DNA of 64,000 nucleotides, from the IMG/VR virus record IMGVR_UViG_3300040801_001812, positions 62,001 to 126,000 of that record, one strand, 5' to 3'. Every line of letters begins with the position of its first letter. Within the stretch, counting starts at the first letter, position 1. Shown here one piece after another: positions 9,370 to 32,417 of the stretch. Below the pieces are notes generated by a model. That model worked only from the letters and a program-made list of their open reading frames with translations. It was not told the DNA's origin and did not search any database. This DNA comes from a virus. The translations under genes were made by a program, and so were the position numbers.

Positions 9370-12300
9370 TTAGTACCGCGTCCGGATACCCGGATTACCG
9401 AAGAGCTTGAAGAGGTCAGCCGCGATGGGTGTTCCATCGTTCAACCGGTTGCGCTCTTCAGCACGGTAGGATGAGAAGATGACCAAGTAGCCCTCTCCGT
9501 CGATCTCGACGATGGCCGTCGAGAAGATGACGCGAGGGACTGAGATGGTCTTAAGTGGGAAGGTCTCCAGCGTATCGAATCCGGGGAAAGTACCCGTGGC
9601 TTCGAACCCACGCTGTGAGTAGTCCAGCGGAACGTTGTCTCCCCACTCGGTGGAAATGGCACGCCCCGGACCCTGGATGAAGAACACCCGGTTGAAATCG
9701 AAGCGGGATCCACCGCCATAATAGGGGTTGATTTCTTGGGCCGAGGCGGGGTAGCGGTTGATAACCGGAAGCCGTGCATATGGGGTACCGCCCGTTTCCC
9801 CCGTGATTGGAAGCGGCTCCGGAGCAAATAGATACTCATCAGTCACACGCGGTGACTTGTTCGGTGAATCGATAGGGGTTGGCAGGTGCGCCAGCATGTT
9901 GGCGTAGAAGCCCATCCCGCCATCCTGTGTGACAGTGGTTGGTGTACCACGCCCAAGAGTGGAGATGTAGATCATGTTGGTGTCGGACACATAGTGCCGC
10001 CCATAGACTCCCGACTCGTTGATGAAGCGCCAGCAACCTTGGTACGGAGCAAACCGCGCCTGGTAGGTGCAAGTGATGGTCGCTGGTGGCGCGATCAAAT
10101 AAGAGATCCGTCCAGTACCCCGTTCCACGTTCGGGAAGTAGCGGTAGCCCCGAACCACCCGGTTGTTGTAGGTGTCAGCGAACCAGAGTTCGTCATCGTA
10201 AACCACTACACCACCAGGACCGGCCATCGAAGCCTTACCGCGACCAACCACCGCAGGAGAACCGATCTGACCGAGAACGGTCAGGGAGGTCGCATCAATT
10301 GCCGTGAGGGTGTTAGTCGTCACATCGGCAACGTATAGGATATCGTCCTTCAGGTGAACGGCTCTAACGTTTTCCCACTCAACCGCGAGGTCAAGATCGA
10401 TGTCCAGTGGCAGGTCCGCAGTATCGTACAGGAAGTTAGTCGAGATCTTACCGGACACCGGGGTGAACGGCTGCTCGTAGACCTGCATCGAAGTAACGTC
10501 AGCCAGCAGAACGTAAGCGTTGCCGTTATTGGCGAAACGAATGTTGGCGGGCCAGGATCCGCTCGGCCAGTTCTGTGGGTCATACAGATCGTTGGCTGCG
10601 GCCACCATAGTGCTTGTGTCGATGTCGCGGATGAACCCCGCAGTCGAGTTACCATCCAGTGAACCACCACAAACGTACAGGTGGGATTCCGTGTCGTCCA
10701 AAGCCATACCCCAAGGAGCAGTCACACCCACAGCAGCGGGATATGCAGAGGTCTTGCTCTGGGTCACAAGGTCAGCAGTTGCTGTCAAAGTTGGGGTACC
10801 CGGAGTCGGATCGACCTTCAAGACCTTACCGGTTAGGAAATCACCTACGTAGATGACGTTACCCGCAGCGTTAACCTCCACGTCGTGGCAGAAGGTGAAC
10901 GTGTGGCCCCCAACGGCAGTCACATCCCAGTCCTCAGACCAGCTTGCCGTTGTACCGCGAGATGCAGCAGTTGGAAGCGCGATCTTACGAAGATGGTTCT
11001 GACCAGCGAGATAGAGCTTAGCCGAAGTACCCGAGTCTGGGAACAGGGCCATGCCGGTAACAGGTTCTGTGTCGTAAGCTCCAACATAAGACAGGTCAGC
11101 GGCGTCAAGGACAACAACACGGCCCTCTGTTGCAGGCCCTGGTTGCGTGTAGTCCGCAACGTAGACCAGGGCAGCGTCAGGGTCGTAGACCACATCCCGT
11201 GGGTTGTTCAGGTGGCTAGAGTCAAACCCGCTCACACCATCTTCGCCGAAAGTAGCAACGAGCTGGAAGCCCTTGTTGAACTTGAGGATCTGCTTACGAT
11301 CCGCAGCAACGCAGTACTTGTTCTCGTTGGCATCCTCTTCGATGGCAACCCAGTCGTCGCGGTAGAACTGCTGCATGTCCGCGCCCATCATCGAACCTAG
11401 GATGGACTCGATGCTCATTTGCGTCGGATCCACGAGGACGATACGACTTTCGTCAGCAACGTAAACGTACTCGTCACCACCGACCGACCCTACGTCGAGA
11501 CCCATCGGCTGGATGAACTGTTCCTTACTCGAACCGCTGGTACCATCACCAATCTGAGACACATAAGTCAGTGAGCTATTAAGCTTGACCAGCCTATACA
11601 GGCCCGTATCCGCAATGAAGACGTTACCCGAGCTATCGACCGTGACGCCCTCGGGGTTATACAGCCGGGTAGTGTGGGTAGCCGTGTTGGCCGGGGTGTT
11701 AGCTGTACCGAATGAGGCAACCAGCGCGGTTAGTCCCGCGTTGAGTTTCACCACACGGTGGCTGTCTCGGTCGGCAACATACACGTTACCGGACGAGTCG
11801 CAAGCTACATCCACCGGGTACCGAAGGTGCTTCGAGGCATCCCACGGCGTGTCGTCATAGTTAGCGGGCGTCGGCCACTGGGCATCGTATTCCAGAGTTG
11901 CAGCCACGATCCGTGCTACGCGGTTGTTGGCCGAGTCACAGACATAGATGTAGGTGTTCGTCGGGTCAATGCACATTCCAGAAGGCAGGTTGTACCCTGG
12001 CTCCAGGCTTTCGCTGATCTTCCAGAGGACCATGTCCGGGTCGTCCGGAGACCCGTCCTCGTTGCCAGCAACAGCCGTTGCGTAGTCGTTCACGCCGTCG
12101 TGGAAAAGAACGTGGTCGCAATACTTGAGCGGACGAGCGATGCCCGTGCACTCTGGGTAAAGTACCTCGACGATTCCGTCGATAGTACCGTTGGGTTCGT
12201 AGGTCGCAGCCGAAGTGTCGATAGTGGCCGTAGCGGTGTTCGTTCCAAGACCGGACCACACCGAAGAGAAAATAACCGGCTGGCGAGAACCCCTCCACCA

Positions 12301-14364
12301 CAAACGTGGATAGGAATCGTTGATGATCGCGCCCTTACCCGAGGTGGCCGAGTACCCAGAAAGCTGAGTGTCGGTGGTCGCCAGGGTGATGACCTTTGTC
12401 GAGTTGTTGTAGCTGATCAGAGGCGAGGGGTTACACGCAGTCGAGGCAGTCACGTCTGTGATGCTGACTGGAACCTCCTGCACCTCTTCCTGGGGCGAGA
12501 ACAAACGACGGATACCATCGTGGTGTGCAACTGGAGCCGTGTAAGCCGCGCCGTCTGAGGGGTCAGAGCTGGTGGACAACCCGATGTCACGTACCGTAGC
12601 GATGTTGGTGTTGATGGCCAAGCCTGAGTACTGGTAAACACGCCAAATCTCAGGAGTCTCGACCCCCCACACCTCGATGAACACGTCTGCGTCACTGTTG
12701 TCGCCCGAGTTGATGATCGGTTGACCGAAGATCGAACGGTGATCGCCACGGATAATGCGGTCGAGAGTGTTCTCAGCCGCTTCGTTCATCCCATAACGTT
12801 CGGAGAAGACCACAGGGCGCAGATCGATGACGTGCCGGTCGTCCGGAACATCGTGGGACAACCCGTCTGGGCGGTCGGTACCACCGTTCTGGTTGTCATA
12901 CGCCCAGGCGGTAGTGTTGAAACGGGACCACACGCAGAGCGGGATCGCGTAGATGTAGCCGTCGTAGGTACCAAGATCCGTTTTCGAGGTTGTGTCTCCT
13001 GCGCCCGAGAACCAGAGGGTACCGTCGTGGAAATCGTTGAGTCCGTTGCTGAAAGCATACCCGGAAACCGGGCTGCTGTTCGGACCACGGGCTTCGACGT
13101 TGGTATCGTCGTCCATCCATCGGGGGTAGTTCGCGTAGTCTACGTCAGGAGCCACACGCAGTCGGTGCTGCACTTGAATGTAGTTGCCGCTTCCAAGGAA
13201 GCTAATCGTACCCTGGAGACGCACGTCGTCGGGGTCGGTGATCGCTTGGTAACGGTAGGCCACTACAAGCTCTTGGCTGGAAGTCGGAGGTGAGCCTCCG
13301 GGGGCCGTTAAAGTCCATTCCCCAGTGTCGTAGTCGATGGTACCGGACCAACCAGAACCACTTACTTCTGTAAGAACTCCTGAACCGTTGTCCATACACA
13401 CAGGGGTTTCGGAATCGTAGTCAATATCCCCAGCTCCAGTAGCACGGAGATACACAGAGAACCCCCAGAGGTTTTTCAATTCAGTGTACTTAACAATATC
13501 TCGGCCTACAACTTGCCCGTTGAAAGATTCTGTTGCGTCATCACCCGCAGCAAGAGTGGCGCGTCCCCAAATACCGAAGTCACGCGATCCGTAGGGATAG
13601 AAGCGAGGATCGTTGGCGTCCACCTCTTGCAGCCAGACCTCAAGAAAGGCGAGGTCAAAGCGATGCCCTGTTGTTGGAGCGGGTGGGAAGTTAATAGTGA
13701 TCTGCCCCCAGTTCCCAAAGGCCAACTTTTTGTCTGCGCTCTGAGAGGCGTCATAAGTACCTCCGTGACAGTTGAGAACTGGAACCACAAAACCATTGAC
13801 CAACACGTAAATAGGCTTGGTGTTCGCTTTACGGGACATGCCATCTTGTTCGATCCGCGTCTCGATGGCGAGACAGTTCTTAGTTTCCTCATCTGGCACG
13901 TTCTGATTCTTGACGGTCCACGCTCTCTCAGGGACAAAGAACCCACCGAAGGGCGAGGGCATGAACTCATTGTTTTCCATCGCGAAATTAGAGCGGATGA
14001 ACTTGTCTGGGTAAGGACCGTTCATAAACCCGCTGGTATATCTCTCCCGCAAGAACGCAGCCGACTGCTGAAACGCGGAGAACTGGACATTCCGGATGTC
14101 AAACAGCTCTTGAAGGAAGATATCCATGTTGTCGAGACGGGAGTCAAGAGTTCCCCAGGTGTATGCACTTCCTGCGGGCCACTGGACACCAACATATGCA
14201 TCCTCGATCTCGTCAACGAGTTCATCCACCGCGTCCTTGATCGCTATGTCGTTAGCAGCAAGGTGATTCAGTGGCCGATTGTCCACATCGTAGCGGTAGA
14301 TATCAGAGCTGGTGAATAGCTCAAGACCCGCGCCAGTGGTAATAACTGGTTTGTAGATGGCCAT
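9370..14364 (-). CDS. Giant tail protein with NHL-type beta-propeller
   Basis: This is a 1,664-residue protein. The N-terminus begins MAIYKPVITTGAGLELFTSS and includes helices around residues 60-110 that probably anchor it to the baseplate. The middle is beta-rich. From about residue 780 to 1410 repeated NHL-like blades occur, for example IYVCDSANNRVARI, VYVADRDSHRVVKLN and VFIADTGLYRLVKLN, with a last blade around WFADTYNNRVVRG. NHL propellers bind proteins, glycans or RNA. In a tail protein they would be exposed receptor-binding or decoration domains. The C-terminal 250 residues are unassigned. It has a normal Shine-Dalgarno site (CGGAGG) and sits in the tail-periphery operon. The repeats are recognised by eye, and the blade count is not established. 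Confidence 0.75.
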   Translation of the reverse strand: MAIYKPVITTGAGLELFTSSDIYRYDVDNRPLNHLAANDIAIKDAVDELVDEIEDAYVGVQWPAGSAYTWGTLDSRLDNMDIFLQELFDIRNVQFSAFQQSAAFLRERYTSGFMNGPYPDKFIRSNFAMENNEFMPSPFGGFFVPERAWTVKNQNVPDEETKNCLAIETRIEQDGMSRKANTKPIYVLVNGFVVPVLNCHGGTYDASQSADKKLAFGNWGQITINFPPAPTTGHRFDLAFLEVWLQEVDANDPRFYPYGSRDFGIWGRATLAAGDDATESFNGQVVGRDIVKYTELKNLWGFSVYLRATGAGDIDYDSETPVCMDNGSGVLTEVSGSGWSGTIDYDTGEWTLTAPGGSPPTSSQELVVAYRYQAITDPDDVRLQGTISFLGSGNYIQVQHRLRVAPDVDYANYPRWMDDDTNVEARGPNSSPVSGYAFSNGLNDFHDGTLWFSGAGDTTSKTDLGTYDGYIYAIPLCVWSRFNTTAWAYDNQNGGTDRPDGLSHDVPDDRHVIDLRPVVFSERYGMNEAAENTLDRIIRGDHRSIFGQPIINSGDNSDADVFIEVWGVETPEIWRVYQYSGLAINTNIATVRDIGLSTSSDPSDGAAYTAPVAHHDGIRRLFSPQEEVQEVPVSITDVTASTACNPSPLISYNNSTKVITLATTDTQLSGYSATSGKGAIINDSYPRLWWRGSRQPVIFSSVWSGLGTNTATATIDTSAATYEPNGTIDGIVEVLYPECTGIARPLKYCDHVLFHDGVNDYATAVAGNEDGSPDDPDMVLWKISESLEPGYNLPSGMCIDPTNTYIYVCDSANNRVARIVAATLEYDAQWPTPANYDDTPWDASKHLRYPVDVACDSSGNVYVADRDSHRVVKLNAGLTALVASFGTANTPANTATHTTRLYNPEGVTVDSSGNVFIADTGLYRLVKLNSSLTYVSQIGDGTSGSSKEQFIQPMGLDVGSVGGDEYVYVADESRIVLVDPTQMSIESILGSMMGADMQQFYRDDWVAIEEDANENKYCVAADRKQILKFNKGFQLVATFGEDGVSGFDSSHLNNPRDVVYDPDAALVYVADYTQPGPATEGRVVVLDAADLSYVGAYDTEPVTGMALFPDSGTSAKLYLAGQNHLRKIALPTAASRGTTASWSEDWDVTAVGGHTFTFCHDVEVNAAGNVIYVGDFLTGKVLKVDPTPGTPTLTATADLVTQSKTSAYPAAVGVTAPWGMALDDTESHLYVCGGSLDGNSTAGFIRDIDTSTMVAAANDLYDPQNWPSGSWPANIRFANNGNAYVLLADVTSMQVYEQPFTPVSGKISTNFLYDTADLPLDIDLDLAVEWENVRAVHLKDDILYVADVTTNTLTAIDATSLTVLGQIGSPAVVGRGKASMAGPGGVVVYDDELWFADTYNNRVVRGYRYFPNVERGTGRISYLIAPPATITCTYQARFAPYQGCWRFINESGVYGRHYVSDTNMIYISTLGRGTPTTVTQDGGMGFYANMLAHLPTPIDSPNKSPRVTDEYLFAPEPLPITGETGGTPYARLPVINRYPASAQEINPYYGGGSRFDFNRVFFIQGPGRAISTEWGDNVPLDYSQRGFEATGTFPGFDTLETFPLKTISVPRVIFSTAIVEIDGEGYLVIFSSYRAEERNRLNDGTPIAADLFKLFGNPGIRTRY

Positions 14365-14380: not shown

Positions 14381-16567
14381 TTAGACGAAACCTAAGCGTT
14401 TTTCGCGTTCGCGTTTCTCTTTAATGCGATCTCGCCGTCGTTGACTGATGTTTGTCGTTCTAGACTTAACCGCCCGTTTATGGGTAGCCTTGAACGGCGT
14501 GGTGTGCACGTACTTACCTTCTCGTTTAGCCTGTGCCCGAAGTGCACGGCGTTGGAGAGGGGAGAGTCCTTGGTTGAGTGCAACGCCTGTTGGGACGGGG
14601 TTGTACCCATACTTCTTGATCGGTGTTCTCTTTCGAGTCTTACGTGCCATAATCTCCGCAACGCGTTCATTCTCCTTCTTGCGTTGAAGAATTCGCTCGG
14701 CATCGATGATGTCAGCACGCTTCCTCCGGGCGTCCATATTCTCATGGTCAAACCGATCCAGTGTTCCACCGATCTTTGGCTCCCATCCGGTGGCTCTCTT
14801 CCGCTCCCTGTAAGCAGCAGACCTGAGTTTCATCTTGTTCTGGGTCTGCGGGTTCCATGAGGATCCAGACTTACGGGCCAGCTTCCTAGCTACGGGGAGA
14901 CTGAACTTCTCCCTACCTTGAATTAAGCGTTCTCCACCATGGAAGGGGGAGTCAAAGTACTGTAGATAGATGACAGCCGGTATCAGGGCGAACTGCCTTT
15001 GTTGGTTACCACCAATAAAAGTTCGAACAGGGCCGTTCAATGTGGCTCTCACATGGAGCTTGTTTGTTTTTCGCCCCACAATACCTAAGTCCCGGTTAGC
15101 CGCAAGTTTAGAGTGGGCCAGATAGTCGGCGATATTTTGTGGATGGAGCTTCAACCCGAAACGCTCACGTAGGTTACCCACCAGAGGTACCCAGAGTCTA
15201 CGGATTTCTTCATTGCTATTCACAAAATTATAGTTCGATTTTCGGAGATGTCGGGTGAATCTGTCCCAGTCGTTTCCGTGGTAACCCAACCCCTTAAGGA
15301 TCGTTTTATCCCACTGGTAATTTTCCGACGTACGTGGGGGTTGGATCGTCCACTGCGACTTATGCCGTTTGGTTTTCGCTGGCTCAGCGGAGTAGCCGGG
15401 GAAAAGTTTGCGTCGATCTGCGAGACGGGTTCCGTATTCATGTTCCGACGCCATAAGCCACACGTACCACATGAAGGCTTCTTTCGCGGTACTCGCGACG
15501 TTGGCGTAGGCTGATCGGAAAGCACGCCGATTGCCGGTCAGCTTATCATCAGGAGCCTTCCCGATGAGAGCACGGCGCGATTGGTGAGCGTGCTCGTACG
15601 CCTCGCTGTGCTTCTCTTCGTCTTCGGGGCTGAGACCTCCCCCGGTTTGAGCTTGGATGGCCTTCTCTTTCTTCTCCAGGCGCTCTAACTGAAGTTCCCA
15701 CTTGGATAGGGCCTGCCTGATGACAAACCAGTTGTATGCCTTTTTCCAAGCTTTTTCCTGGAGACGAGTAATGGCCTCTTCAAAGTTAGGATATTCTTTG
15801 GGAGACTCCAGCGGGACAAAGTTCTCAGAATTGCTGAGGAGTCTGTTCCATTTGGCGCTCTTGAAGTACTTCTTCAGGTCATCGAAGGTTAGCCCTTTAG
15901 AGACGAAGTGCATGTCGGCGGGGAGCATGGGAGCAAATTTGTTAGTCCCCGTCACGTGACCTGGAGCAGACTTATAAGGCCGGATAAAGATGTAGTACGG
16001 GACTCCGTCCAGGTCGTGTACTACAGCCCTGTCCTTCCGGTAGTCTTCCTTCTCAGTGTCAACAGCCCGCCCGATACGCTGGAGGTCGGGGTGGTAGTGC
16101 CCCTTGAGTTCTCGGGCAGAGATGGTATGTGGGTCTTCGATGTCACCCAGATTCATCCTCATCTGACGATCTGGGCCAAAGTGAACACCTGGGTGGGTGT
16201 TCAAGTCGTAGTTAGAGACACCGGGGCGTTGATGGGCTACGGGACGGGATCTCTGAAGATCGTAATCCTGTAGCATTTTGCGGATAGCCCCCTTGAATGT
16301 AGAGGGGGCCATCTTCTGGAGGTAAGCATTACCCTTCTTGTGGGCTACGCCCTTCAAGGCACTCATCACACGGCGTCGTGCAGCTTGGTGTTGGTCGCCG
16401 TCTAGGTCCATCTCTTTAAAGACGGCAGCTACCTTCTGCTGCCAAGGCATACGAGCCGCGAAATCCGGCCCCTTAGCAGGGAGTCCCCGGTGCTCGTAGT
16501 CAAGTCGTTGTTTGATTTGGCTACGGTTCGTGGGCTTTTTAGCCTCGTGAAGAAGGTAGAAACGCAT
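14381..16567 (-). CDS. Large basic virion-type protein, unknown
   Basis: This is a 728-residue protein. The ATG at 16567 overlaps the previous stop as TAATG, which is preferred to an upstream start at 16585. It starts MRFYLLHEAKK and is rich in Lys, Arg, Trp and Tyr throughout. A coiled segment lies near residues 295-325. The terminal 150 residues are extremely basic (KSRTTNISQRRRDRIKEKR near the end). No enzyme motif is visible. Its style matches the large basic proteins of the head module (52972-54468, 54470-56725, 59161-62475), yet it lies in the tail block. A DNA-contacting or ejected virion protein is a guess. Confidence 0.65.
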   Translation of the reverse strand: MRFYLLHEAKKPTNRSQIKQRLDYEHRGLPAKGPDFAARMPWQQKVAAVFKEMDLDGDQHQAARRRVMSALKGVAHKKGNAYLQKMAPSTFKGAIRKMLQDYDLQRSRPVAHQRPGVSNYDLNTHPGVHFGPDRQMRMNLGDIEDPHTISARELKGHYHPDLQRIGRAVDTEKEDYRKDRAVVHDLDGVPYYIFIRPYKSAPGHVTGTNKFAPMLPADMHFVSKGLTFDDLKKYFKSAKWNRLLSNSENFVPLESPKEYPNFEEAITRLQEKAWKKAYNWFVIRQALSKWELQLERLEKKEKAIQAQTGGGLSPEDEEKHSEAYEHAHQSRRALIGKAPDDKLTGNRRAFRSAYANVASTAKEAFMWYVWLMASEHEYGTRLADRRKLFPGYSAEPAKTKRHKSQWTIQPPRTSENYQWDKTILKGLGYHGNDWDRFTRHLRKSNYNFVNSNEEIRRLWVPLVGNLRERFGLKLHPQNIADYLAHSKLAANRDLGIVGRKTNKLHVRATLNGPVRTFIGGNQQRQFALIPAVIYLQYFDSPFHGGERLIQGREKFSLPVARKLARKSGSSWNPQTQNKMKLRSAAYRERKRATGWEPKIGGTLDRFDHENMDARRKRADIIDAERILQRKKENERVAEIMARKTRKRTPIKKYGYNPVPTGVALNQGLSPLQRRALRAQAKREGKYVHTTPFKATHKRAVKSRTTNISQRRRDRIKEKREREKRLGFV

Positions 16568-17061
16568 TAGAACGTAAACGTCCACGTGGCTACTAGCTTG
16601 ATCGTGCTGTTCTTCACGATGTAGCCAAACGCTTTGTGCGCGAACATCAGTGTGCCGCTAGCGTAGTATAACCCAGCCTCAGAGTACTCCAGTGTTCCGG
16701 TCCCGTTCCCCTCAGCGGCCTCAACAGTGGCTTCAAATTGAACCTTCCGGTCAGAAGGCCATGTGGTTGTGCTGGTAACGTCATACGAGAAATTCTCATT
16801 ACCGTAAAGATCGGTGTCGGTGACATCCACGGTTTCCATGACTGTAACGTCTGAAGGGTCGTGTCCTCCGTCACCGAACTTCATCGTATCAACAAACCAG
16901 TCGCCAGAGGCGTTGCCCAGAAGTCTAGCGAGAGCTTCCCGACCGTCGTTGACCACGATATTTTCGCCAGTCACGTGCTGTACGAGTCGTCCTGAGGGTG
17001 CGTGGAAGGCTCTTAGGTCGAAAACGCCGACCGGTACCTTCACGGTGTCGAATAGGTTCAT
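16567..17061 (-). CDS. Tail structural protein, unknown family
   Basis: This is a 164-residue beta-rich protein. GGGAGGA seven bases upstream fixes the ATG at 17061, even though the start lies 137 bases inside the preceding sulfotransferase frame. It contains V-N-DGREALARLLG, then FGDGGHDPSD, and ends in alternating strands (STIKLVATWTFTF). This layout is familiar from small myovirus and siphovirus tail-tip or fibre-attachment proteins, but I cannot name the family. It is followed through a TAATG junction by the 728-residue basic protein. The strong ribosome site and ordinary composition say this, not the overlapping frame, is the ancestral coding frame here. Confidence 0.7.
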   Translation of the reverse strand: MNLFDTVKVPVGVFDLRAFHAPSGRLVQHVTGENIVVNDGREALARLLGNASGDWFVDTMKFGDGGHDPSDVTVMETVDVTDTDLYGNENFSYDVTSTTTWPSDRKVQFEATVEAAEGNGTGTLEYSEAGLYYASGTLMFAHKAFGYIVKNSTIKLVATWTFTF

Positions 17062-18121
17062 GGTCTTCCTCCCAGAAATTGTGCGCTATGCTTTCTTCGA
17101 TGGAGATAAGCGGTTCGTCAAGGGCGTAAGCCACTTCGTAAGGGCAGGGACGTAACTTCCACTCAATCCCCTTTTCATCACTAAATCTCCGAAGAGACCC
17201 TCGAAACGCTGCACTGGCTTTGCAGTTTTTGCAGTGGGCTTCGTTGACACCACCCATGAATCGAGGGCACAACCACGTTTGAGTCTCCCGGTGGAAGTGT
17301 CTTCCTCGATCCTTGAAAAACTCGATAATTTCATGGAATTCACCTCTTCGAAGCCAGTCATACGTTCGCTCCGCTTCTCCCCATAGGGTGTTCTCTCGCT
17401 TTTCGGGGTAACTCCGTCGCAGCTTGGGTTTGATGTTCCCTGCCGCACATCGGAAGTCTCCCTCTCCAATAAACCCCGTGAGACGCCATAACGACTCAGT
17501 AGGGCGGTCGATAAGGTCGTCGAAATCAACCATGAGATAAGGGACCTCTGGGTGGGCGGTAAACCATTCAGCCAGTTCGATAGAGACGCGAATGAACATC
17601 TGGGGGGAGTGAACGACCTCCGAGTTGATGTCAAACTCTTCGCCCCCTAGCGTACGCAGCTTTTCACGGCCTAGCCGTTCTTGGGACTTCGCTACAGCAC
17701 GCGGATGGCGAATCATAACGACGACCTTTTCCACATAGGTCGGGTCCGTCTTCGATAGCCCTTGTGAGACGATCTTGCCAACAAGGGGGCGTTCCGCAGC
17801 TTTCACCTCCGCTATAAGCGAACGCAATTGAGGCTTGTAGCGAAATCCACTAACTGAAAAACGGCCATCTTCCCAGAACCCGTCCGGATTCATGTCGTGA
17901 TACCGCTCCTCCTCAGCGTCAGAGGGTAGCTGGTCCTGAACGGTCAGGTAGTACATCCGGAGGGCGTATTGCGCGTCAGACTCTTTGAGGTGCTGTTCCA
18001 ACTTAGTTCTCTGGGGCTTCTCAACCCCGAGGATCCGATTTTCACCAAGCGTTGTCCTAAAACAGGACATCATTAGGGAGGTTCCGGATCGGGGACACCC
18101 GGAAATTACATACAAGCCCAT
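16925..18121 (-). CDS. P-loop sulfotransferase-family protein in the tail operon
   Basis: This is a 398-residue protein. The N-terminal ISGCPRSGTSLMM (6-18) is the 5'-phosphosulfate-binding loop of PAPS-dependent sulfotransferases. VVVMIRHPRAVAKS (133-146) matches the 3'-phosphate motif R-x-P-R-x-x-x-x-S. A later VDFDDLIDRPTESLWRLTGF also fits the fold. These enzymes move sulfate from PAPS to sugar or tyrosine hydroxyls. The substrate is unknown. A Cys cluster (LCPRF, HCKNCK, RPCPYE) near residues 280-330 may bind zinc. Residues 354-398 overlap the next gene in another frame and are Arg/Thr-rich, suggesting a lost stop. It lies between a fibre gene and tail genes, so the target may be the virion's own fibre or a host surface glycan. 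Confidence 0.8.
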   Translation of the reverse strand: MGLYVISGCPRSGTSLMMSCFRTTLGENRILGVEKPQRTKLEQHLKESDAQYALRMYYLTVQDQLPSDAEEERYHDMNPDGFWEDGRFSVSGFRYKPQLRSLIAEVKAAERPLVGKIVSQGLSKTDPTYVEKVVVMIRHPRAVAKSQERLGREKLRTLGGEEFDINSEVVHSPQMFIRVSIELAEWFTAHPEVPYLMVDFDDLIDRPTESLWRLTGFIGEGDFRCAAGNIKPKLRRSYPEKRENTLWGEAERTYDWLRRGEFHEIIEFFKDRGRHFHRETQTWLCPRFMGGVNEAHCKNCKASAAFRGSLRRFSDEKGIEWKLRPCPYEVAYALDEPLISIEESIAHNFWEEDHEPIRHREGTGRRFRPKSLPRTLRTTRTARDWRKYRGQRRSGSSR

Positions 18122-18129
18122 AAGTCTCC

Positions 18130-20166
18130 TTACGTTGAAGCAGTCTCAGGTTTCAACGGGAAGTTGGATGCCCGAGATATGGTAATTGTTTTTCCGTCAA
18201 CAGTATACTCCTTAAACCCCCAATCTCCTATACCAATTCCCTTGGCATAGGCCCCTGTGGGGGATGTCGTTACCCAGGAATCTCCATTTTGTCCCGTAGA
18301 TGTACCCGTGTAGTAATAAAAATTCACCGCAGATGACCGAGTAGACCCGTTGAAATTCGCTTCCAAAGCAACTTTATAGAACGATGGTGAAGTCGTTGAC
18401 CATGCCCAGTTGAGGACAAGGTTTGTAGGGGCGCTATAAGTACCCCCATAGGAGAACTCATAGTTACTTGGGGTCAATAAATGCACACCCTCAGATAGTC
18501 CACCCCAAGAACCCCCAGAAATGGTAGCGATTATCTGAGGAGTACCGCTTCCAACCGCAGCCGTGGTCGTAGGTTCTTTAATGTACTTCAGGAGTACTTG
18601 GTAAGACACGCCGCTGAGATCAGAATCCGAGGTACAATAGATCTTGTAGTCCAGTTTGTTATAGGTAAACGACGCCTTGGCGTTAGCCGTAACTGAATCG
18701 TCCTCGCGCCCCACCCAACCTTCTGAAGCGGTGTTAGCGGAGACCTGAACATCAATCACGTGGAAAACGTCGTTGACACCCAGCCCAGAAGCCACAGATT
18801 TCGTTGTCGCGTTCGGTCCTGTTCCAAAATCTACAACCACAGCGTAGACTGGGATTCCTTTGTAGGTGTCTCCTGTGTCATACTCAGCAGTGGTGTACGC
18901 CTTGCCACCCCCAGACGCTGCATCTTCCCACGTCGGGTTAGCAGCCGCTCCACCAGACGTAAGAACTTGACCAACAGTACCTGCGCTCAAAGCAGCCCAG
19001 GCCGAACCACTATGATAAAGAATATCCCCCTGAGAGGACGCGGTGGGGAGGGTTTCTAAAGCACTCCACGTGGGCTGACCAGACCCAACGGTAAGAACAT
19101 CCCCCGCTGTACCTAGCCCAAGGTTAACCCAGGAGCTGGTATCATCGTCATAGTACACGATATCCCCGTCAGCAATTTCACTACTAGGCAAGCTACCAAT
19201 ATCTTCCCAAGCAACGTTTGCCCCTGCCCCACCCGATGTGAGAACTTGGCCGTCCGTTCCAACAGCCAGTGCTACCCAGCTAGAACCATTGTGGTATAGG
19301 ACGTTTCCTTGTACCCCGGATGGTAAGCCCGACCCGCCAGATTCATCCGCCCAAATAGGATTCGATCCTGCCCCTTGGGTTTTCAGGACTTGGCCACTAG
19401 TACCAACCCCGAGGTTATCCCACGCAGATCCGTTGTAGAACAAGATCTCGCCCTGTGCTGCACCAGCGGGAGCAGGGATCGCAGAAGCATCAGCTACCGC
19501 TTCCCAGGTGGGGTCGGCCCCGGCCCCTTGCGTAGTAAGAACATAGCCAGCAGTGCCGACACCAAGACTAGCCCAATCAGATCCATCATAGTAAAGTACC
19601 TCGCCCTGAGCGGGTGTAGCAGGCTCTGAAATCCAGTCTTTAACGATGTACTCCAGAGCATTTGCCGCTGAGTTAACAGCGACGATACGACCCGACAAAT
19701 AAGGATCTGGTGTATCTGACAGCCCGAGGAAGGTCCCCCCGCTGCCCGATACGTCCATAGCAACCCAACCAGTGTTGCTCGTCCCCGACTCTTTAATATA
19801 CGCAGAGGTACCCGCCCCGCCATCCGTTCTTAGCGCAAGAGATCCGGGGCTAGCGGTAACGGCCCCCTCGGGAGTTCCCGTAACGAAGTGAATAGCCACA
19901 TCTGTATCGGTCTTGTAAGTCAGCTTGTCAGCAATCAGCTCATCAGCCGTCAAAGGAACGGTAGCATCAAGAACGACTCCAGTAGAGACCTTCGCGCTTA
20001 GGATGCCTGCGAACTCGATCTCGTCCTGGCTCAGCCCTAGGAGGGTAGCGTTATCGCCCCCGTCCTTTAAGATTTGAGGAGTAGACGCCGGAAGCCCCGC
20101 ATTGGAGTTATCCAAGTACAGGAGATCCAGGTAGTTATCTTTGGGTGCGCTTCCGGTTAGTGCCAT
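18130..20166 (-). CDS. Repeat-containing tail fibre protein
   Basis: This is a 678-residue protein. After an N-terminal region (MALTGSAPKDNYLDLLYLDN) and residues 30-175 of fibre-like beta sequence, five repeats of about 40-47 residues follow (about 185-413). Each is built around Q-G-(E/D)-(I/V)-L-Y-x-(D/N/S)-G-S-x-W-x-x-L-x-x-GT-x-G-x-VL and ends P-T-W-(E/S). Similar repeats occur in many phage fibres and probably form a trimeric shaft. The C-terminal 260 residues (from about GKAYTTAEYD) are Ser/Thr/aromatic-rich and likely carry the receptor-binding head. GGAGG lies seven bases before the ATG. The sulfotransferase gene follows after only eight bases. Confidence 0.85.
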   Translation of the reverse strand: MALTGSAPKDNYLDLLYLDNSNAGLPASTPQILKDGGDNATLLGLSQDEIEFAGILSAKVSTGVVLDATVPLTADELIADKLTYKTDTDVAIHFVTGTPEGAVTASPGSLALRTDGGAGTSAYIKESGTSNTGWVAMDVSGSGGTFLGLSDTPDPYLSGRIVAVNSAANALEYIVKDWISEPATPAQGEVLYYDGSDWASLGVGTAGYVLTTQGAGADPTWEAVADASAIPAPAGAAQGEILFYNGSAWDNLGVGTSGQVLKTQGAGSNPIWADESGGSGLPSGVQGNVLYHNGSSWVALAVGTDGQVLTSGGAGANVAWEDIGSLPSSEIADGDIVYYDDDTSSWVNLGLGTAGDVLTVGSGQPTWSALETLPTASSQGDILYHSGSAWAALSAGTVGQVLTSGGAAANPTWEDAASGGGKAYTTAEYDTGDTYKGIPVYAVVVDFGTGPNATTKSVASGLGVNDVFHVIDVQVSANTASEGWVGREDDSVTANAKASFTYNKLDYKIYCTSDSDLSGVSYQVLLKYIKEPTTTAAVGSGTPQIIATISGGSWGGLSEGVHLLTPSNYEFSYGGTYSAPTNLVLNWAWSTTSPSFYKVALEANFNGSTRSSAVNFYYYTGTSTGQNGDSWVTTSPTGAYAKGIGIGDWGFKEYTVDGKTITISRASNFPLKPETAST
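18925..19614 (-). repeat. Five tandem shaft repeats in the tail fibre gene
   Basis: Five divergent units of about 120-140 bases encode the Q-G-D-I-L-Y ... GT-x-G-x-VLT ... PTWE module. The repeat is clear at protein level and degenerate at DNA level, so recent duplication is not implied. Confidence 0.75.
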
Positions 20167-20207: not shown

Positions 20208-22766
20208 TTAAACTGTGGGCATCTGGTGGTGTGGCCAACTATCAGTGGGTGCCCCAATCCAGAACCCGAGTAGCCAAGCGTCCCTCAAATAGGTATTTAA
20301 CTGGGCACTGGCATACACACGGAAGATGTTCAGTTCGGTCAGACCATCAGCCAGACCGGAACCATTCGCTAGAGTCACGGTCGTCTCGGCTGCGTGATCT
20401 GTCCCGGTGGTTGAGTAAATTGAACGGGTATAGAGCTGACCGGTAGATGGGAACCACTCCATCCGAATGCAAAGCCAAGCATTGGCCTGATCACAGCTCT
20501 GTGGGGTGGAATGAATTACCCCGGCAGAATCGACATACGATGAACGCTGAATATCGTATGGGCTTGCTCGCCATACGGCAACCTGGACCCCATCTTCATC
20601 GGTGTTTCCATCCCTGGATTTGTTCCAAACACCAACATAGGGTCCTGCGGGTCCAGACGTTTCGTGAGATATCCAATAAGACAAGCGGAATCCCCCAGTG
20701 GCATCGACTGGATCTGGCAGAGTAAACTCTCCGATGCAGGCGTTAGTGGGGTCGGTGTCAAAGTGAAGGCATTTTCGACTTGGATCCCAACCGTGAATCC
20801 TGTTTGAAACAACAGTTGGAGCGACACCAGTTTCACCCGGAGGCTTAACCCAACCGTCTGGCGTTGCTCCAATCGTCGCGTCGTCAAACCTGTGGAAGTA
20901 AGGGAGAGAGAGGTACGAAGAGGCACTTCCTCCCCAGTCTTCAAACAGCTCGTCCTCAGCTTCCCAGTTATCCGCCTGCATTTCCCAAGGCGTCTCCCCA
21001 GATGGGTTCTGCTCAACCCGCAACACCGACAGAGGACGCGTAGCGTAGCCAAACTCTCGCGTAAGGGTGTTAGCATGACCAGCAGCACTCAGGACGTCTG
21101 TGAAACCCCTGGAGGGGAAGTCGGCCTTATCGATGAACGGCACTGGACCAGTGGCCGGATACAAGTTCATCCCATCCCGAGTGAGAGGAAGGGTGTATGG
21201 TTCTTCTGGGATCCACGAGACCTCGACGTACAGATCCTCAGGTGGGTGACAGTAGCCTTCTTGTGGGTCACGCACATGCGGGAATGGAAGCTCGGAAGAA
21301 CCACGCGGGAAGAGACCAGAGCGATCACACGGGGGGATCTCTGTGGAGTAGCTGTAGTCTACTACAATATCCGTGCCATTATCTGGTTCGTAGCCCGAGT
21401 CGAAGTCCATCCACCACGCGCCGGTTAGGTAATCCAGAACGCCCGTAACCCCTTCTGCGATAAGGACACCTTCTTCGCCAACGTCTTCAACGTCAACCGG
21501 GGAACCTCCGATAGTAACCGTGAAAACGACCCCTGGGAACATCCAAGCATTGGCGAGAGTACCTGAAACATGGTCTAACCCAGCCGAGGCTACGCTGTAG
21601 GTGACCTCGTCTACAACATCAGTGGCTACAACGGACCCGGCCAACGGGGTCGTAAGCGCCAAGGGGTTCGAACCCAAAAGACGTTCATCCAAACGGGTGT
21701 ACTGGATGTCGTCTTGGTCGCAGTAGCCTAGATACCAGCCCTTCTCGTCCCGAACCGGGTTTGCCGTCATGATTGACGTTGGTTCGACGGGGTCGTCTAC
21801 CTGCTCCTGCATCTCGGTCAAGAACTCTAGCCATTCAAGAACAGCGAACACGGGGCGCAGGAACTCAATCCTACGGTGCATGTAGTTGAAGTCGGGAGTA
21901 TCGAAATGGAGCCTCAGCAGGGCACCAGCAGCCGATAGCTCGTCAACCATCTCATACCACGCCTCGTCCTCTCCAACCTCCTCGGCGAGCGCCTCGTACT
22001 CGTCGATGAGCAACTGGGGAGTTGCCCCCCACTCGATGAACACGTGTCGGTCGCCTACGATCCCTCGGAGACGGATGCCATAGTGCGGACTACGGTACCA
22101 CGTGCCTCCGTTCTCGATCAAAAGAGGAAAATCGTTCGGCGGATCATTTCCCGCTGCCACACCAGGGATTGTATCGGTGAAGGTTGCGTAATCCTCTGTC
22201 CATAGCGGGATCATCTCTGTGTCGAACCCAAAGGCGTACAGGATTGCCCGGAACGCCTTACGGCTACCCTTGGCTTTATACCAGTCAATAGCCGTCCGAA
22301 GTTGTCTCCGCTGCTCAGCCGTGTTGTCCACATCTTCCAGGGGGAAGTTCAGCATCTCTGCGATTACACGGAGGTACCGTGGGGGGCAATGCTCGATATC
22401 AAGAATGAGTGGTAACTCGTCGATAGCCTGCTTGATCTCGTCCAACGTGATAGCGAACACCTGGGTAAACGCATCGAGGGCACCGTCACCCCCACCCTCA
22501 GGAATTGTCTGGACGTCCTTCCTCCAATATTCGTAAGGGAGGAAATTGAGGATATTGTCCTGAAAATAGGTCTGGGTGATGGACTCGATCAAGATGGTCC
22601 CGCTATCCCGTGCGATATCCTGACTCGGAATAACCGCAATACGTCCACTAGCGTGCGTTGGTTCAACAACGTAGATGACCGCACTCCCCGCATAGAGTGG
22701 GTCAATGATGAAGATTCGACCTGAACCTTCAGTGGCCGGGATCGTTGGAGGAGATGGCAGAGGCAT
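20208..22766 (-). CDS. Baseplate protein with P2 gpI-like domain and long C-terminal extension
   Basis: This is an 852-residue protein. Residues 66-190 read like phage tail protein I of the P2 gpI family. QDNILNFLPYEYWRKD is followed by LRVIAEMLNFPLEDVDN, then the family's R-R-x-L-x-x-A-I-x-W-Y-K-x-KGS and A-I-L-Y-A-F-G-F. P2 gpI links the baseplate edge to the fibres. Here the domain is fused to about 650 further residues of beta-rich sequence with several lectin- or jelly-roll-like stretches (e.g. GGFRLSYWISHETSGPAG), far longer than P2 gpI. The ATG at 22766 overlaps the previous stop as TAATG. A combined baseplate-fibre connector is the likely role. Confidence 0.75.
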   Translation of the reverse strand: MPLPSPPTIPATEGSGRIFIIDPLYAGSAVIYVVEPTHASGRIAVIPSQDIARDSGTILIESITQTYFQDNILNFLPYEYWRKDVQTIPEGGGDGALDAFTQVFAITLDEIKQAIDELPLILDIEHCPPRYLRVIAEMLNFPLEDVDNTAEQRRQLRTAIDWYKAKGSRKAFRAILYAFGFDTEMIPLWTEDYATFTDTIPGVAAGNDPPNDFPLLIENGGTWYRSPHYGIRLRGIVGDRHVFIEWGATPQLLIDEYEALAEEVGEDEAWYEMVDELSAAGALLRLHFDTPDFNYMHRRIEFLRPVFAVLEWLEFLTEMQEQVDDPVEPTSIMTANPVRDEKGWYLGYCDQDDIQYTRLDERLLGSNPLALTTPLAGSVVATDVVDEVTYSVASAGLDHVSGTLANAWMFPGVVFTVTIGGSPVDVEDVGEEGVLIAEGVTGVLDYLTGAWWMDFDSGYEPDNGTDIVVDYSYSTEIPPCDRSGLFPRGSSELPFPHVRDPQEGYCHPPEDLYVEVSWIPEEPYTLPLTRDGMNLYPATGPVPFIDKADFPSRGFTDVLSAAGHANTLTREFGYATRPLSVLRVEQNPSGETPWEMQADNWEAEDELFEDWGGSASSYLSLPYFHRFDDATIGATPDGWVKPPGETGVAPTVVSNRIHGWDPSRKCLHFDTDPTNACIGEFTLPDPVDATGGFRLSYWISHETSGPAGPYVGVWNKSRDGNTDEDGVQVAVWRASPYDIQRSSYVDSAGVIHSTPQSCDQANAWLCIRMEWFPSTGQLYTRSIYSTTGTDHAAETTVTLANGSGLADGLTELNIFRVYASAQLNTYLRDAWLLGFWIGAPTDSWPHHQMPTV

Positions 22767-24037: not shown

Positions 24038-25570
24038 CTACGTAAGAGGTTCTTCACCGGGATAGATGTCTGGCGTTGGTAGCTCTATGGCCTCTGCCAT
24101 GGTGATGGTGGCTGAGTTCAACACCGGGACTTCCCACTTCTGGAGCACCACCTCGGTGCCTTTGTCGGTCGTGGTATCGGTATCAGGGTCGTACTCTGTG
24201 AAATTCGACATGAAGACGTGGTTCACGCCGGGGACCGCCATGACCATCCTGTAGAAAGTGGACTGACGGATATCTTGACCGAAGCCCACGTTCTCCAGTT
24301 GGAAAAATTCTCGGATGGCATCGGTAACTTGGATACGGACGTTTTCCTGGGAGTAGCCCGGAGTGACGTAGACGGTCATCGCTACGTTGAGATACACATA
24401 CTCGGGATCGATGAAACGCAGTCTAACTGTGATAGGCTGCACCTCCAACAGGTAATCCCGTACGATAGACCGAAGATTTTCTGAAGGAAGGCCCCCTCCG
24501 ATGGGGACGAGGCAGATGTTGGCCCAGTTCATGTTCTCATACGACGGTGGATCCTCTTCCTGTTCGCCCCACACGTTCACGTGCTGGACGCCTCCTAACC
24601 TCACGATGAGGGCGGTGTAGTCGTACTTTGACAAAGGCCGATAGAGAGCCGACAGGGCACCAGGGGCGTTGGTTTTGACCTGCTCCAAGGATTGGCGATC
24701 ATCGCCCCCGGCAGCAGCGGCTTCGTTGTTAACCGTGATTCCCTCGACCTTGGCGTTTGTCCTCACTGTGCGGATCGTAGAGAAGACGAGGCTGATTGAC
24801 CCCGCTCCAACGTTCCCAGAACTACCGGACGACTGCGTGTAGGAGACTGTGATGGTCTCACCAACCGAAGGAGCACGCCCGTATTTACCGTCTCCGAAGT
24901 AGATCCGGCACACACCCAGGTAGTCAGTTTTGACTACAAAGTGGAAGTCGTTGGTCTCACTGTAGAGGAAGCTCTCCTCCTGAGTCCACTTGACGTTCCC
25001 GGTGAGAACTTCAATGGTGGAGATATCTACGTCCTGCACACCCAGCTTGACGAACTGGCCTGCGGTCCCATCTGCGGTGAAGGTCTCGGTGTAAGGGTAG
25101 CCCTGTACGGCTTCCACGGCTTCGCTGGTAAGATCCCCAGCGGGGATCGTGGTGTTTTCAGACGTGAGGAACATCCCCGCGTTTCCAGCTCCACCACCAG
25201 CAGCAACACCGATTCGAGTACCCTTTGGGATAAACACCTCTTCGGTTAGTTCTGTGGGGAGCGTGAACTTCACGTCAGCCCGCGCCGATGTCCGCTCGCG
25301 GATACGGTATCCAATCAACTGGGTCAGGCGGTACACGTTCTCAGGCTGGCGGACAGTGGGGAGGAAGGCTTCGAGAGCGTTGGAATCCAGGTAGAACGCG
25401 AGCATGTCGCCGAGACCGGCCATCACCTCGACGAGGGTGACCGAGACAGATGACTCGTTCAGATCGGTGATCTGTCCATTCGACAACAGCGGTAGACGAG
25501 CAATCATCTCCGTACGGAGAGTCCCGAAGTCTTTCAGGAAGTAGTCAGCTTTGAACTTGGTGTCAGACAT
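24038..25570 (-). CDS. Baseplate assembly protein J family (T4 gp6-like)
   Basis: This is a 510-residue protein. The N-terminal helices (ALEAFLPTVRQPENVYRLTQLIGYRIRE as two parts around residues 64-91) lead into the beta domain beginning F-IPKGTRIGVAAGGG. In the baseplate J / gp6 family such residues form the ring joining wedges. Near residues 275-300, the AAAGGDDRQSLEQVKTNAP segment is the family's helical insertion. A C-terminal domain with YVTPGYSQENVRIQV also fits. It follows the gp25-like gene as in P2, Mu and many myoviruses (W-J-I order), and GGAG precedes the ATG. It is a structural wedge protein of the baseplate. Confidence 0.88.
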   Translation of the reverse strand: MSDTKFKADYFLKDFGTLRTEMIARLPLLSNGQITDLNESSVSVTLVEVMAGLGDMLAFYLDSNALEAFLPTVRQPENVYRLTQLIGYRIRERTSARADVKFTLPTELTEEVFIPKGTRIGVAAGGGAGNAGMFLTSENTTIPAGDLTSEAVEAVQGYPYTETFTADGTAGQFVKLGVQDVDISTIEVLTGNVKWTQEESFLYSETNDFHFVVKTDYLGVCRIYFGDGKYGRAPSVGETITVSYTQSSGSSGNVGAGSISLVFSTIRTVRTNAKVEGITVNNEAAAAGGDDRQSLEQVKTNAPGALSALYRPLSKYDYTALIVRLGGVQHVNVWGEQEEDPPSYENMNWANICLVPIGGGLPSENLRSIVRDYLLEVQPITVRLRFIDPEYVYLNVAMTVYVTPGYSQENVRIQVTDAIREFFQLENVGFGQDIRQSTFYRMVMAVPGVNHVFMSNFTEYDPDTDTTTDKGTEVVLQKWEVPVLNSATITMAEAIELPTPDIYPGEEPLT

Positions 25571-25572
25571 GC

Positions 25573-26094
25573 TTACTCCGTAACCTGACCACGGTTAGCC
25601 ATCCGTGTGGCTTCAACCCCGGTGTAAAGGCTCCCGGTCTCAGCGCCCTCACGCACGAAGGGATACACGTAGCTCCCCTTGATGTGCGAGTTGCGGATCC
25701 GGTACTGGATGTGGACCCCCAGCGTGTGCCCGTCGCTGCTCAGGTTGTCGAGGATCGCGACGTTCAAAATCTCGATGCGCTTCTCCCATCGCTTCAGCGC
25801 GTCAGAGGTGTAGAAGACCAACAGCCTCTTGAGGATGGCATCGTTGGGTTCGAAGACCAAATCTGGAAGTTTACTTCCAAATTCTGGGTTGAACAACCGC
25901 TCACCGATCCGAGTCGCGAGGATGAGATGGATCGAGTCGCTGATCCTCTCACCCGCATTAGACTGCGGAATGATCCCAACCGTATTCCCGTCCGTGAAGC
26001 GCAGAGGAAAATCAATATCCTGCCCGATAACTTCGAGCAGGTTTGTCTTCACAGTATTTTGGGCGATCAGTTGTTCTTCTTCACTAATGGGCAT
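25573..26094 (-). CDS. Baseplate wedge protein, T4 gp25 / P2 gpW family
   Basis: This is a 173-residue protein. The family signature is plain: SI-x-LILATRIGERLFNPEFGSKLPDL (in two parts, residues 53-79) followed by FEPND. The EPR-like core of gp25 is represented by NPEFGS. In T4 gp25 holds the wedge to the sheath and nucleates sheath assembly. The gene overlaps the preceding one by 11 bases and is followed by gpJ three bases later, the classic order. The C-terminal tail with VYPFVREGAETGS is longer than usual. Confidence 0.92.
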   Translation of the reverse strand: MPISEEEQLIAQNTVKTNLLEVIGQDIDFPLRFTDGNTVGIIPQSNAGERISDSIHLILATRIGERLFNPEFGSKLPDLVFEPNDAILKRLLVFYTSDALKRWEKRIEILNVAILDNLSSDGHTLGVHIQYRIRNSHIKGSYVYPFVREGAETGSLYTGVEATRMANRGQVTE

Positions 26095-26745: not shown

Positions 26746-29700
26746 CTACGGAGAGTGAGTCGGGGCAGTACCACCAACAGAACTGTGGTCGCCTGCGGAT
26801 TGAAGCAACAGATCGTTAGCGGCATCGATTGTGATATCTCCATTCGCTGAGGAATCAGCATGGATGTCAATCCCATAATTGGTGGCCCCGATATCTATAG
26901 CGTTGAGGGCAGTGACGGTAACATCTGCTCCCCCCATAGCAAGCTCCCCTTTATCGGCTGCCGTACCCCATTGGATACTTGTAGAATCCCCAGCAAGCTC
27001 CTGCCAGTTGTTGTGGATCCATGCGTAATCTCGGTGAAAATAAGCCCCCGTTTTACCTACAACTCCTGGTTGCGTAGCATCCGTTCCGTTGACAGTTAAA
27101 GCAGTACCTCTTCCCCCAAAACTACTCGTTGATGGCGTGTTCCCAACAGCGACAGAAGACACCGCAGTGTACCCCTCATACCCGTGGTCGATTGACACTC
27201 CCCCGCCAACACCAAGACACGCTGCCTGATTTAGCAGGTCGCCTGTGCATCCCACAGCAATACCACCCGCCTCAGGGTAAACCCGAGTGTAGCCTGTAAC
27301 GCCCACTGAACAAACGCCTCCACCATATGTGCTGGAAGCCGCATTCTTAGTCCCTCCAACATGCAAGGCTCCACCACCTGAGATAATTCCTCCTGTGCCA
27401 TCCGAACCAATAAAAGCCACGCCTTTATCGCAAATCATACTTGCCGTACCACCGACCATTAGACCGCCATCCCCGCCACCGAAAAGAAGTCCATCGGCCC
27501 CAACGCTGAGGAAGTCCCCATCTCCCCGCGAGTTGTAGAATGACCCACCAACAAGAACTACACCGTCTGAAGCCTTAAACTCCCCTGTAGCCCCGCACCC
27601 AACAGCCAGTGCGGTAGTGAAATTTGACCCGACCATGTCAGTGATACCAACACCGATAGCGTCTGTCCCGCTCTGGATCTTATCTCCCTTTGCGACTACC
27701 GTTTGGGGGCAACCATCGACTTCGTCAAGGTCTGCCCCAACCACAGAACCCGCAAATTGAATACGCCCTTCAAGGGAAGCTAGAAGAGCGGCCCCACCGT
27801 TTTGCATATTGATGTTATGGGGTTGTCGGGCACAGATTAGCCCGATTTTGTCGCCGTGGCAAGTTAACTCTGAGTTGTGTCGTGCCGTGATAACTCCAAT
27901 ATCTCCAGACCCCGTCACGATCCCACCCTCGGAACGTGCAGAAATTACCCCTGAAGTGAGGTACACAGTTAGATTGTCCGAGAAAGTACTACGAGCAATG
28001 ATAACACCACTACCATCTCCAATAACCGCGTCCCCTCCAGAAGAGTCCCATCGGGAACCCACAACACCTGAATAACGGCCAACATTGAATTGATCAAGCT
28101 CCGAACCAGCAAACATCAACCCAGCGTTCTCGCCAAATGTGGTGTATGCTACTTCAGACCCCACATCTACCCAGCTCGCGTCGTTTCCAAAACTGATCTC
28201 ATCGGATACGATATGCCCGGACACCACCCCACAGTCATCACCAAAGATGAACTCATCACCGGCAGCACGATTGACTAGGAAAGAGCTAGATCCAGCATTT
28301 TCTGAAGCGGCTACCTCTACTCGGTTGAGAAGGAGGGCGCTTTCAGCCTCGGTCGATACGTTTTCGAAAGCTGCATTGTTAACTAGCAGGGCAGCATGGG
28401 TATCCAGCTCTGTGGTACCCCCAATTTGCCCGTTGTTGATGATCAACGCCGCCATCGCACCAGAGCTTAGGTCTCCTGTGATCTGGACTCGGTTCAAGAC
28501 TACGCTGCTATCATTGCCTGCGAGGTCTAGCTCATCGCAGTCAAAACCACTACCCTCCAGCACCTGGGAGGATCCTGTCAGCGTAACCTTCTTCTCGCTA
28601 GTCACCTTTGAAAACTGAAGAACGCTGTCTGACACCGCATCAACGCCTGCGTCCCAATTAGCGTAGACTCCCCGCACAACACTACCGGTCACCGACCACG
28701 TTTCGGCTCCGACCAGGGGTGTTGAACACCTAATAGCCTCGAACACCGAATTGGTGATGTTAACTTCTTCCTCCCCTGTGAGTTCACTATCGTAAATGTA
28801 GAATACACAGGAGTTCAGCGTTAGCGTTTTGTCAGGGCCATCGTTAGCCCCAAGATCGATAGTAGAGTTGTACAGGCTGTATTGACACTGGTCCAGAGAA
28901 AAGCCACAAGTGAGGGTGGTTTCGATAGCTTCTCCCGTGCACTTTTCGAAAGACACGGAACCGTTAAGATTACAGTACTTTAGGTGTACATTAGAGTCCG
29001 TGATGGACACCTTCCCCTTACTGGCTGTCACATCCACCTTGGTCATCTCAACCGTAGTGATGCCTTCTCCGTTGAGGATATCCAACGCCTTAGTGTCTTG
29101 ATCCTGGGCTTCGACTACCGTGGTTTGGTCTCCGAGGACATGGAGATCGATGACCCCATCTACGTGAACACTCGTTTCTCCCGAATCTGGAGCCGTCCAG
29201 CTAGGACAGTTCACGATGAAAAGCTCAGTGCAGTTATGCGCGTGTAGTGCCTTCTTACCACGGACACTATCAATATTTTCGAGCCTCATGTAGGGGCAAC
29301 CATCAGCGTATACGCCGTTTAGTGAGCCGTCTGTGTTCTCAAAACTCGCGTAGTTCGCGATAACCCCACTTACGTCATGGGCGTACACAAGATGCTCGGA
29401 CCCCGTATCCGCTACAACCGTACCTTTTTCGGATGTGCAGTGCATTTGGACATCGCCACACTCATGGAGGTGCACACCCCCCTGGCACTCTGAAGCCGTG
29501 AAGTTGACAACGTCAACCAGCTCAATCTTACCCAGCCCCGCACCGTTCGACTGGAGATATGCGATATACCCAGAAGTAGTTCCCGCATCCAGGGTAGGGA
29601 TGTTAACCAGCCGAATATGGGCTGTAGCTGTGATGCTGACAAGATCTCCCGAAGGCTCCGAGGCAGTAATAGTCCCGATGTCTCGCAGTTCGACGAAGGA

Positions 29701-32415: not shown

Positions 32416-32417
32416 TG

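Follow-up and report, generated by a model that had tools for sequence, protein, structure and literature searches.

A phage-specific family of predicted PAPS sulfotransferases encoded beside a conserved fibre-tip domain

The sulfotransferase gene and its operon

The window, that is, the whole stretch of 64,000 nucleotides analysed here, comprises positions 62001-126000 of IMGVR_UViG_3300040801_001812, a virus record of 139,526 bp, and contains the myovirus structural region of an uncultured tailed phage, encoded on the minus strand. The gene under study codes for a predicted sulfotransferase (STF) and is placed among the following features.

16567-17061, minus strand: downstream gene, PHROG 5417, unknown function (6.5e-18)
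16925-18121, minus strand: STF gene, 398 residues as opened, the conserved protein being residues 1-351
16925-17068, minus strand: non-conserved tail of the STF frame, about 47 residues, mostly within the span of the next gene
18126-18131, minus strand: AAGGAG, the Shine-Dalgarno sequence of STF itself, overlapping the fibre stop
18130-20166, minus strand: repeat-containing tail fibre of 678 residues, 5′ neighbour of STF (PHROG 9851 tail fibre, 2e-7)
20208-22766, minus strand: Tail_P2_I baseplate/tail protein of the operon context (Pfam, 1.4e-8)
24038-25570, minus strand: baseplate J-like protein, the query for finding relatives of the window phage
25573-26094, minus strand: gp25-like wedge of the structural region
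41821-43659, minus strand: tail sheath of the structural region

STF starts 8 bp past the stop of the 678-residue fibre, which is built with repeated 'GDILYHSGSAWAALSAGTVGQVLTSGGA'-type units. The preliminary description had located at 16925-18121 a PAPS-type sulfotransferase with both PAPS motifs, lying between the repeat fibre and a tail structural gene and sharing one transcript with them. The open reading frame is there, with CPRSGTSLM at residues 9-17 and IRHPRAVAKS further on, and the fibre flanks it on the 5′ side; the gene on the other side, taken for a tail structural gene, proved to be the PHROG 5417 member. A single transcript is likely, given that the genes are on the same strand with mostly short gaps and that promoter and terminator matches occur only at background level. 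The operon also encodes two very large proteins, one of 1664 residues with NHL-like propeller repeats (9370-14364) and one of 1892 residues with short repeats around 'SITSQQG' (26746-32424).

When the window STF is compared with those of two related records, L015 and L126, the third codon position differs at 0.59-0.62 of the sites and the first and second at 0.22-0.37. A third position changing about twice as often, together with relatives in 27 other virus records, indicates that the frame is not a chance one, and the codon pattern shows purifying selection on it. The STF frame and the next gene overlap by 137 bp in a phase that L015 and L126 share, and there the codon-position comparison with these two records follows the frame of the downstream gene and not that of STF; the real STF protein would have about 351 residues followed by a free tail.

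Enzyme class and conserved residues

The family was collected by iterated, selective IMG/VR scans and comprises at least 28 non-redundant virus records, namely the window and 27 others (L002, L003, L009-L016, L018-L024, L035, L126, L135, L137, L149, L152, L153, L154, L157 and L159); L017 and L127, second copies of L016 and L126, respectively, were excluded, and L152 and L153 are close relatives. No member was found by tblastn in 50,697 INPHARED records with four different members as queries. A selective pattern search of 84,980 prokaryote genomes, in which absence is not proof, revealed no close relative and only two distant proteins of 25-27% identity, from Chthoniobacteraceae and Phycisphaerae MAGs (L163, L164), in which a phosphodiesterase-like domain is followed by an STF-like C-terminus.

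Both Pfam families concerned, Sulfotransfer_3 (PF13469) and Sulfotransfer_1 (PF00685), match the window STF marginally, the former with E=8e-6 and 26.7 bits, 0.3 under the cut-off of 27. Three other members (L020 with 47 bits, L024 with 48.5 bits, and L035) exceed the cut-off. The window sequence alone found no match in the PDB and only a weak match, to a group of unknown function, in PHROGs. The family profile matches SULTs (1e-6), and in its alignment with SULT1A3 (1cjm) the R and S of that enzyme pair with R138 and S146. A match to cytochrome P450 appeared with a 3-sequence profile, and that identity was discarded since the match was gone with the 19-sequence profile.

An AlphaFold model of residues 1-355 built from 19 sequences reached a pLDDT of 89.4 and a pTM of 0.83, superseding an earlier one from 9 sequences (pLDDT 74.6). 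In a Foldseek search of the PDB with this model, all 21 matches at E<=0.001 were sulfotransferases or sulfotransferase-fold enzymes, with low TM-scores of 0.26-0.45. The tyrosylprotein sulfotransferases TPST1/2 (5wrj, 3ap1, 8w5z) ranked first and made up 13 of the first 14 matches, at scores close to those of other sulfotransferases. They share with STF a PRSGT-type loop and gave the best E-values, 1.5e-6 to 2e-4, but they are animal Golgi membrane enzymes with 13-18% identity to STF and TM-scores of 0.30-0.39. The model matches thus support the predicted fold class, while TM-scores this low do not settle the substrate class. The predicted sulfotransferase fold and the conserved PAPS-loop residues bear out the assignment first made from the two motifs.

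Residues invariant in 19 homologues include G8, R11, S12, S15, G26, N78-P79, G81-F82-W83-E84, K116, V118, G121, R138, V143, A144, S146, P207, R236, S237, C285, R287, C297, C300, P325, C326, S344 and W350, besides others. They fall in the following elements.

18071-18097, minus strand: 5′-phosphosulfate-binding loop CPRSGTSLM, residues 9-17, with R11, S12 and S15 invariant, as is G8, and G13/T14 near-invariant
17870-17893, minus strand: MNPDGFWE motif, residues 77-84, invariant at N78, P79, G81, F82, W83 and E84 (NPxGFWE)
17774-17776, minus strand: K116 of KIVSQG, invariant
17684-17710, minus strand: 3′-phosphate-binding motif R138-x7-S146, both residues invariant and aligned with SULT1A3
17072-17275, minus strand: C-terminal four-cysteine domain, with C285, C297, C300, C326 and W350 all invariant

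E84 is a candidate for the catalytic base, and K116 appears to sit where known sulfotransferases have their catalytic lysine. STF shares the PAPS loop, the R-x7-S motif and the fold with the Pfam sulfotransferase superfamily and differs from it by the added, invariant C-terminal four-Cys domain. The cysteines are spaced C-x11-C-x2-C-x25-C in the window protein, and four invariant cysteines suggest a site that probably binds zinc; in L019 the domain is present twice.

We consider STF very probably a genuine PAPS sulfotransferase. That it could instead be a different, kinase-like P-loop enzyme, or a relative without activity that acts as scaffold or chaperone for the fibre, would fit the sub-threshold Pfam score and unmatched PDB search of the window protein, as well as an enzymatic activity that is a predicted one for every member. 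Such an identity is nevertheless highly improbable, considering the members well above the Pfam cut-offs, the invariant PAPS-site residues, the fold matches, the purifying selection and the enrichment of APS kinase described below.

STF and the fibre-tip domain

The fibre preceding STF ends in a domain that is common to the 5′ neighbours of STF elsewhere:

18160-18564, minus strand: C-terminal tip domain of the fibre, residues 535-669

In the protein encoded 5′ of STF, the domain makes up the last ~135-185 residues. With the window, L009 and L012 as seeds, a profile was iterated at E<1e-3 over open reading frames of both strands, 646 forward and 545 reverse, the latter serving as decoys; it gathered 33 domain matches and not one decoy. 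The proximity to fibre genes to which the preliminary description had given weight recurs in most records, the tip domain being found in the 5′ neighbour of STF in 20 of the 27 records with 5′ sequence (window, L009, L012, L013, L014, L015, L019, L021, L022, L023, L035, L126, L135, L137, L149, L152, L153, L154, L157 and L159). This count includes three records in which nothing intervenes but an APS kinase gene or a single small Cys-rich gene, and it is partly circular for the three seed records, not for the others. The 5′ gene gave no match to the tip profile in L002, L003, L010, L016, L018, L020 and L024; it is a collagen-like tail fibre in L010, and in L016 the tip domain lies about 5 kb upstream of STF. 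In L011, outside the 27, the sequence is cut just before STF, and the next gene carries the tip domain. The tips of L014, L019 and L137 are stand-alone proteins of ~180-270 residues. Tip domains average 6.2% Tyr, against 3.6% in the window genes; this enrichment is suggestive, too weak to name tyrosine as the acceptor.

The tip domain can at times do without STF, as it occurs without one in L038-L041. In L038 (5911-7115) it is followed by a glycosyltransferase-like gene, with no Pfam match, in the place of STF; possibly alternative modifying enzymes serve one tip fold.

Relatives of the window phage were sought with the baseplate protein, regardless of STF. Those found have the same gene order throughout, with baseplate proteins 72% (L126/L127), 71% (L129) and 62% (L130) identical to that of the window. 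STF and the tip domain are present together in the window, L015 and L126, the STF of L126 being 51% identical to that of the window; STF is absent from the whole records L129 and L130, and the tip domain from their fibres. The fibres of the three carriers align along their full length, with STF directly after, whereas those of L129 and L130 align only in the N-terminal ~400-500 residues (in the window fibre as far as residue ~420), the remainder being divergent. The flanking genes on the baseplate side are syntenic and 54-79% identical in carriers and non-carriers, and the PHROG 5417 gene is retained in relatives with and without STF. In a tree of three proteins of the baseplate region, one branch parts the carriers from the non-carriers. 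The difference may be due to a single event, which would have altered the fibre C-terminus and STF together, so that STF appears to travel with the tip.

Phage sulfotransferases have usually been classed as auxiliary metabolic genes (PMC12285232, PMC10580990), and STF might likewise be a moron in the fibre module, real as an enzyme and acting on neither fibre nor receptor: its substrate would be a small molecule, a virion protein other than the fibre, or a target in nucleotide or sulfur metabolism. A distant relative, L028, adjoins a terminase-like gene and no fibre, and second STF copies lie elsewhere in G010, G011 and G015. A random moron would not be expected, however, to show the strong and repeated association with the tip domain across tape-measure, sipho-type records (L014, L019) and baseplate, myo-type ones (window, L009, L012), and we judge this origin improbable. 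The second sulfotransferase of G010 (C1:252213-252674) lies at a great distance from the copy beside the fibre; the record measures 476 kb, the size of a jumbo phage.

Sulfotransferase domains are annotated in OM43 phages (MVGs) and in the Synechococcus phages S-SRM01 and S-SCSM1, with a function that 'remains unclear'; unlike STF, they are described with neither a fibre-tip link nor a Cys domain in the available part of that source (PMC10580990). The CSP3 'sulfotransferase' of the literature was rejected as a homologue, being actually a CysH-type PAPS reductase. Phage sulfotransferases were thus earlier known by annotation only, and new here is a known enzyme class in a phage-specific, fibre-coupled form.

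PAPS supply and the proposed acceptor

APS kinase is present in 7 of the 28 STF records and adjoins STF in four. It is the gene directly 3′ of STF in L020 (PF01583, 5e-42), lies between fibre and STF in L019 and L149, and is found 3′ of STF in L035 (PF01583, 39 bits), a record that a separate scan, made for the tip domain, had brought up first; in L016, L021 and L022 it is located away from STF. The gene is very rare in phages: one phage APS kinase has matches in 5 of 50,697 INPHARED records and, in IMG/VR, in at least 433 of 2.9 million contigs, both figures being lower bounds not matched for genome length. The enrichment in STF records gives a binomial p of ~1e-15 for a 0.1% background and ~1e-8 for 1%. 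In the reverse direction, 15 of 50 viral APS-kinase records contain a Sulfotransfer_3 protein. ATP sulfurylase (PF01747) occurs in none of 20 STF records, so that of PAPS synthesis the phages appear to carry just the final step. The record of the window phage has no APS kinase, and this phage would draw on PAPS of the host. Sulfatase genes were absent from 19 STF records, which gives no sign of sulfate-removing spikes.

Since STF travels with the part of the fibre that binds the receptor, its gene coming immediately next, the simplest reading is that STF sulfates the tip of the phage's own fibre, or a glycan on the tip, and we give this an even chance. It is supported computationally by family and fold, the conserved PAPS-site residues, the adjacency to the tip domain, their joint presence or absence and the association with APS kinase. 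Catalysis, acceptor, timing and effect on binding we infer as follows. STF would be a cytoplasmic PAPS-dependent enzyme acting on the fibre before assembly, during late expression; the gene sits in the late operon with its own Shine-Dalgarno sequence. PAPS would come from host sulfate assimilation, to which some relatives would contribute their own APS kinase, and the fibre encoded by the adjacent gene would receive the sulfate on its C-terminal tip domain, either on an amino-acid side chain, e.g. of tyrosine, or on a small glycan placed by a glycosyltransferase. The four-Cys domain would probably help to hold the protein substrate. Sulfation of the tip could change its charge and receptor specificity, or else aid folding. 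As for the broader proposal of a widespread module, in which tip domain, dedicated STF and sometimes APS kinase yield sulfated, e.g. tyrosine-sulfated, receptor-binding tips, we hold it at somewhat less than even.

The main alternative is that the target of STF is the glycan or lipid on the host surface that the tip recognises, sulfated late in infection as a mask by which progeny would neither stick to debris nor superinfect. An enzyme matched to the receptor would be equally expected to travel with the tip that recognises it, and this tells against the tip reading. The tip domains without STF in L038-L041, the seven 5′ genes outside the tip profile and the single event that may lie behind the joint difference count against it as well. 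Glycosyltransferase or glycan-type genes near STF in L013, L018, L021, L023 and L149 fit such a glycan acceptor, although a glycan carried by the fibre could just as well be their product. Behind an APS kinase, the viral contig L114 (945-3694) has three sulfotransferase-like genes along with genes of glycan type, which looks like a sulfated-polysaccharide cluster. On the other hand, STF is located inside a virion-assembly operon and not in an early or lysogenic module. O-antigen conversion cassettes usually include a membrane-export component, and no such component adjoins STF; serotype-conversion enzymes (gtr, oac) are membrane-embedded. Signs of integrase are few: tyrosine integrase, the only type searched for, had no match in 22 of 24 records, many of them fragments, with one clear and one weak match in the others, so that lysogenic conversion is unlikely as a general role of STF. 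The nearest fold matches of the model, protein (tyrosine) sulfotransferases, also argue weakly for a protein substrate. On this balance, sulfation of the receptor seems unlikely, while still clearly more credible than the moron.

Both proposed acceptors, on the virion or on the receptor, had been named in the preliminary description, whose interpretation is supported in part, and each would have its counterpart in known systems. The tip reading resembles the glycosyltransferases of mycobacteriophages, for which glycosylation of the capsid has been proposed (PMC11256854) and which would likewise be phage-encoded modifiers of phage-borne structures, albeit with sugar instead of sulfate and from another enzyme family. 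Receptor masking would follow the same logic as the O-antigen-modifying enzymes of serotype-converting phages (gtr, oac; SfIV, PMC3851460), phage-carried enzymes that modify a surface glycan used as receptor; these differ from STF in their chemistry and in belonging to temperate phages. No report of phage sulfation of tails or virions was found in the open-access papers searched. Tying a phage-specific STF family both to PAPS synthesis and to a single fibre-tip domain provides a substrate that is concrete and open to testing. Sulfation of the tip, if it occurs, would add a new chemical layer to phage receptor binding, one missed by sequence-based prediction of host range; if the receptor is sulfated, it would be a new route of receptor masking.

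Other small genes recur on the 3′ side of STF. Related proteins with a GSGxSL motif, possibly DUF115-like glycosyltransferases, are encoded downstream of STF in L003 (11937-12617; no Pfam match for this copy) and L024 (11803-12468). A small Cys-rich protein (CxxC ... CxDCxxKHLxxA), with no Pfam match, is encoded 3′ of STF in four phages, at L003:10992-11516, L020:2771-3448 (with the APS kinase intervening), L022:15591-16088 and L024:10963-11649.
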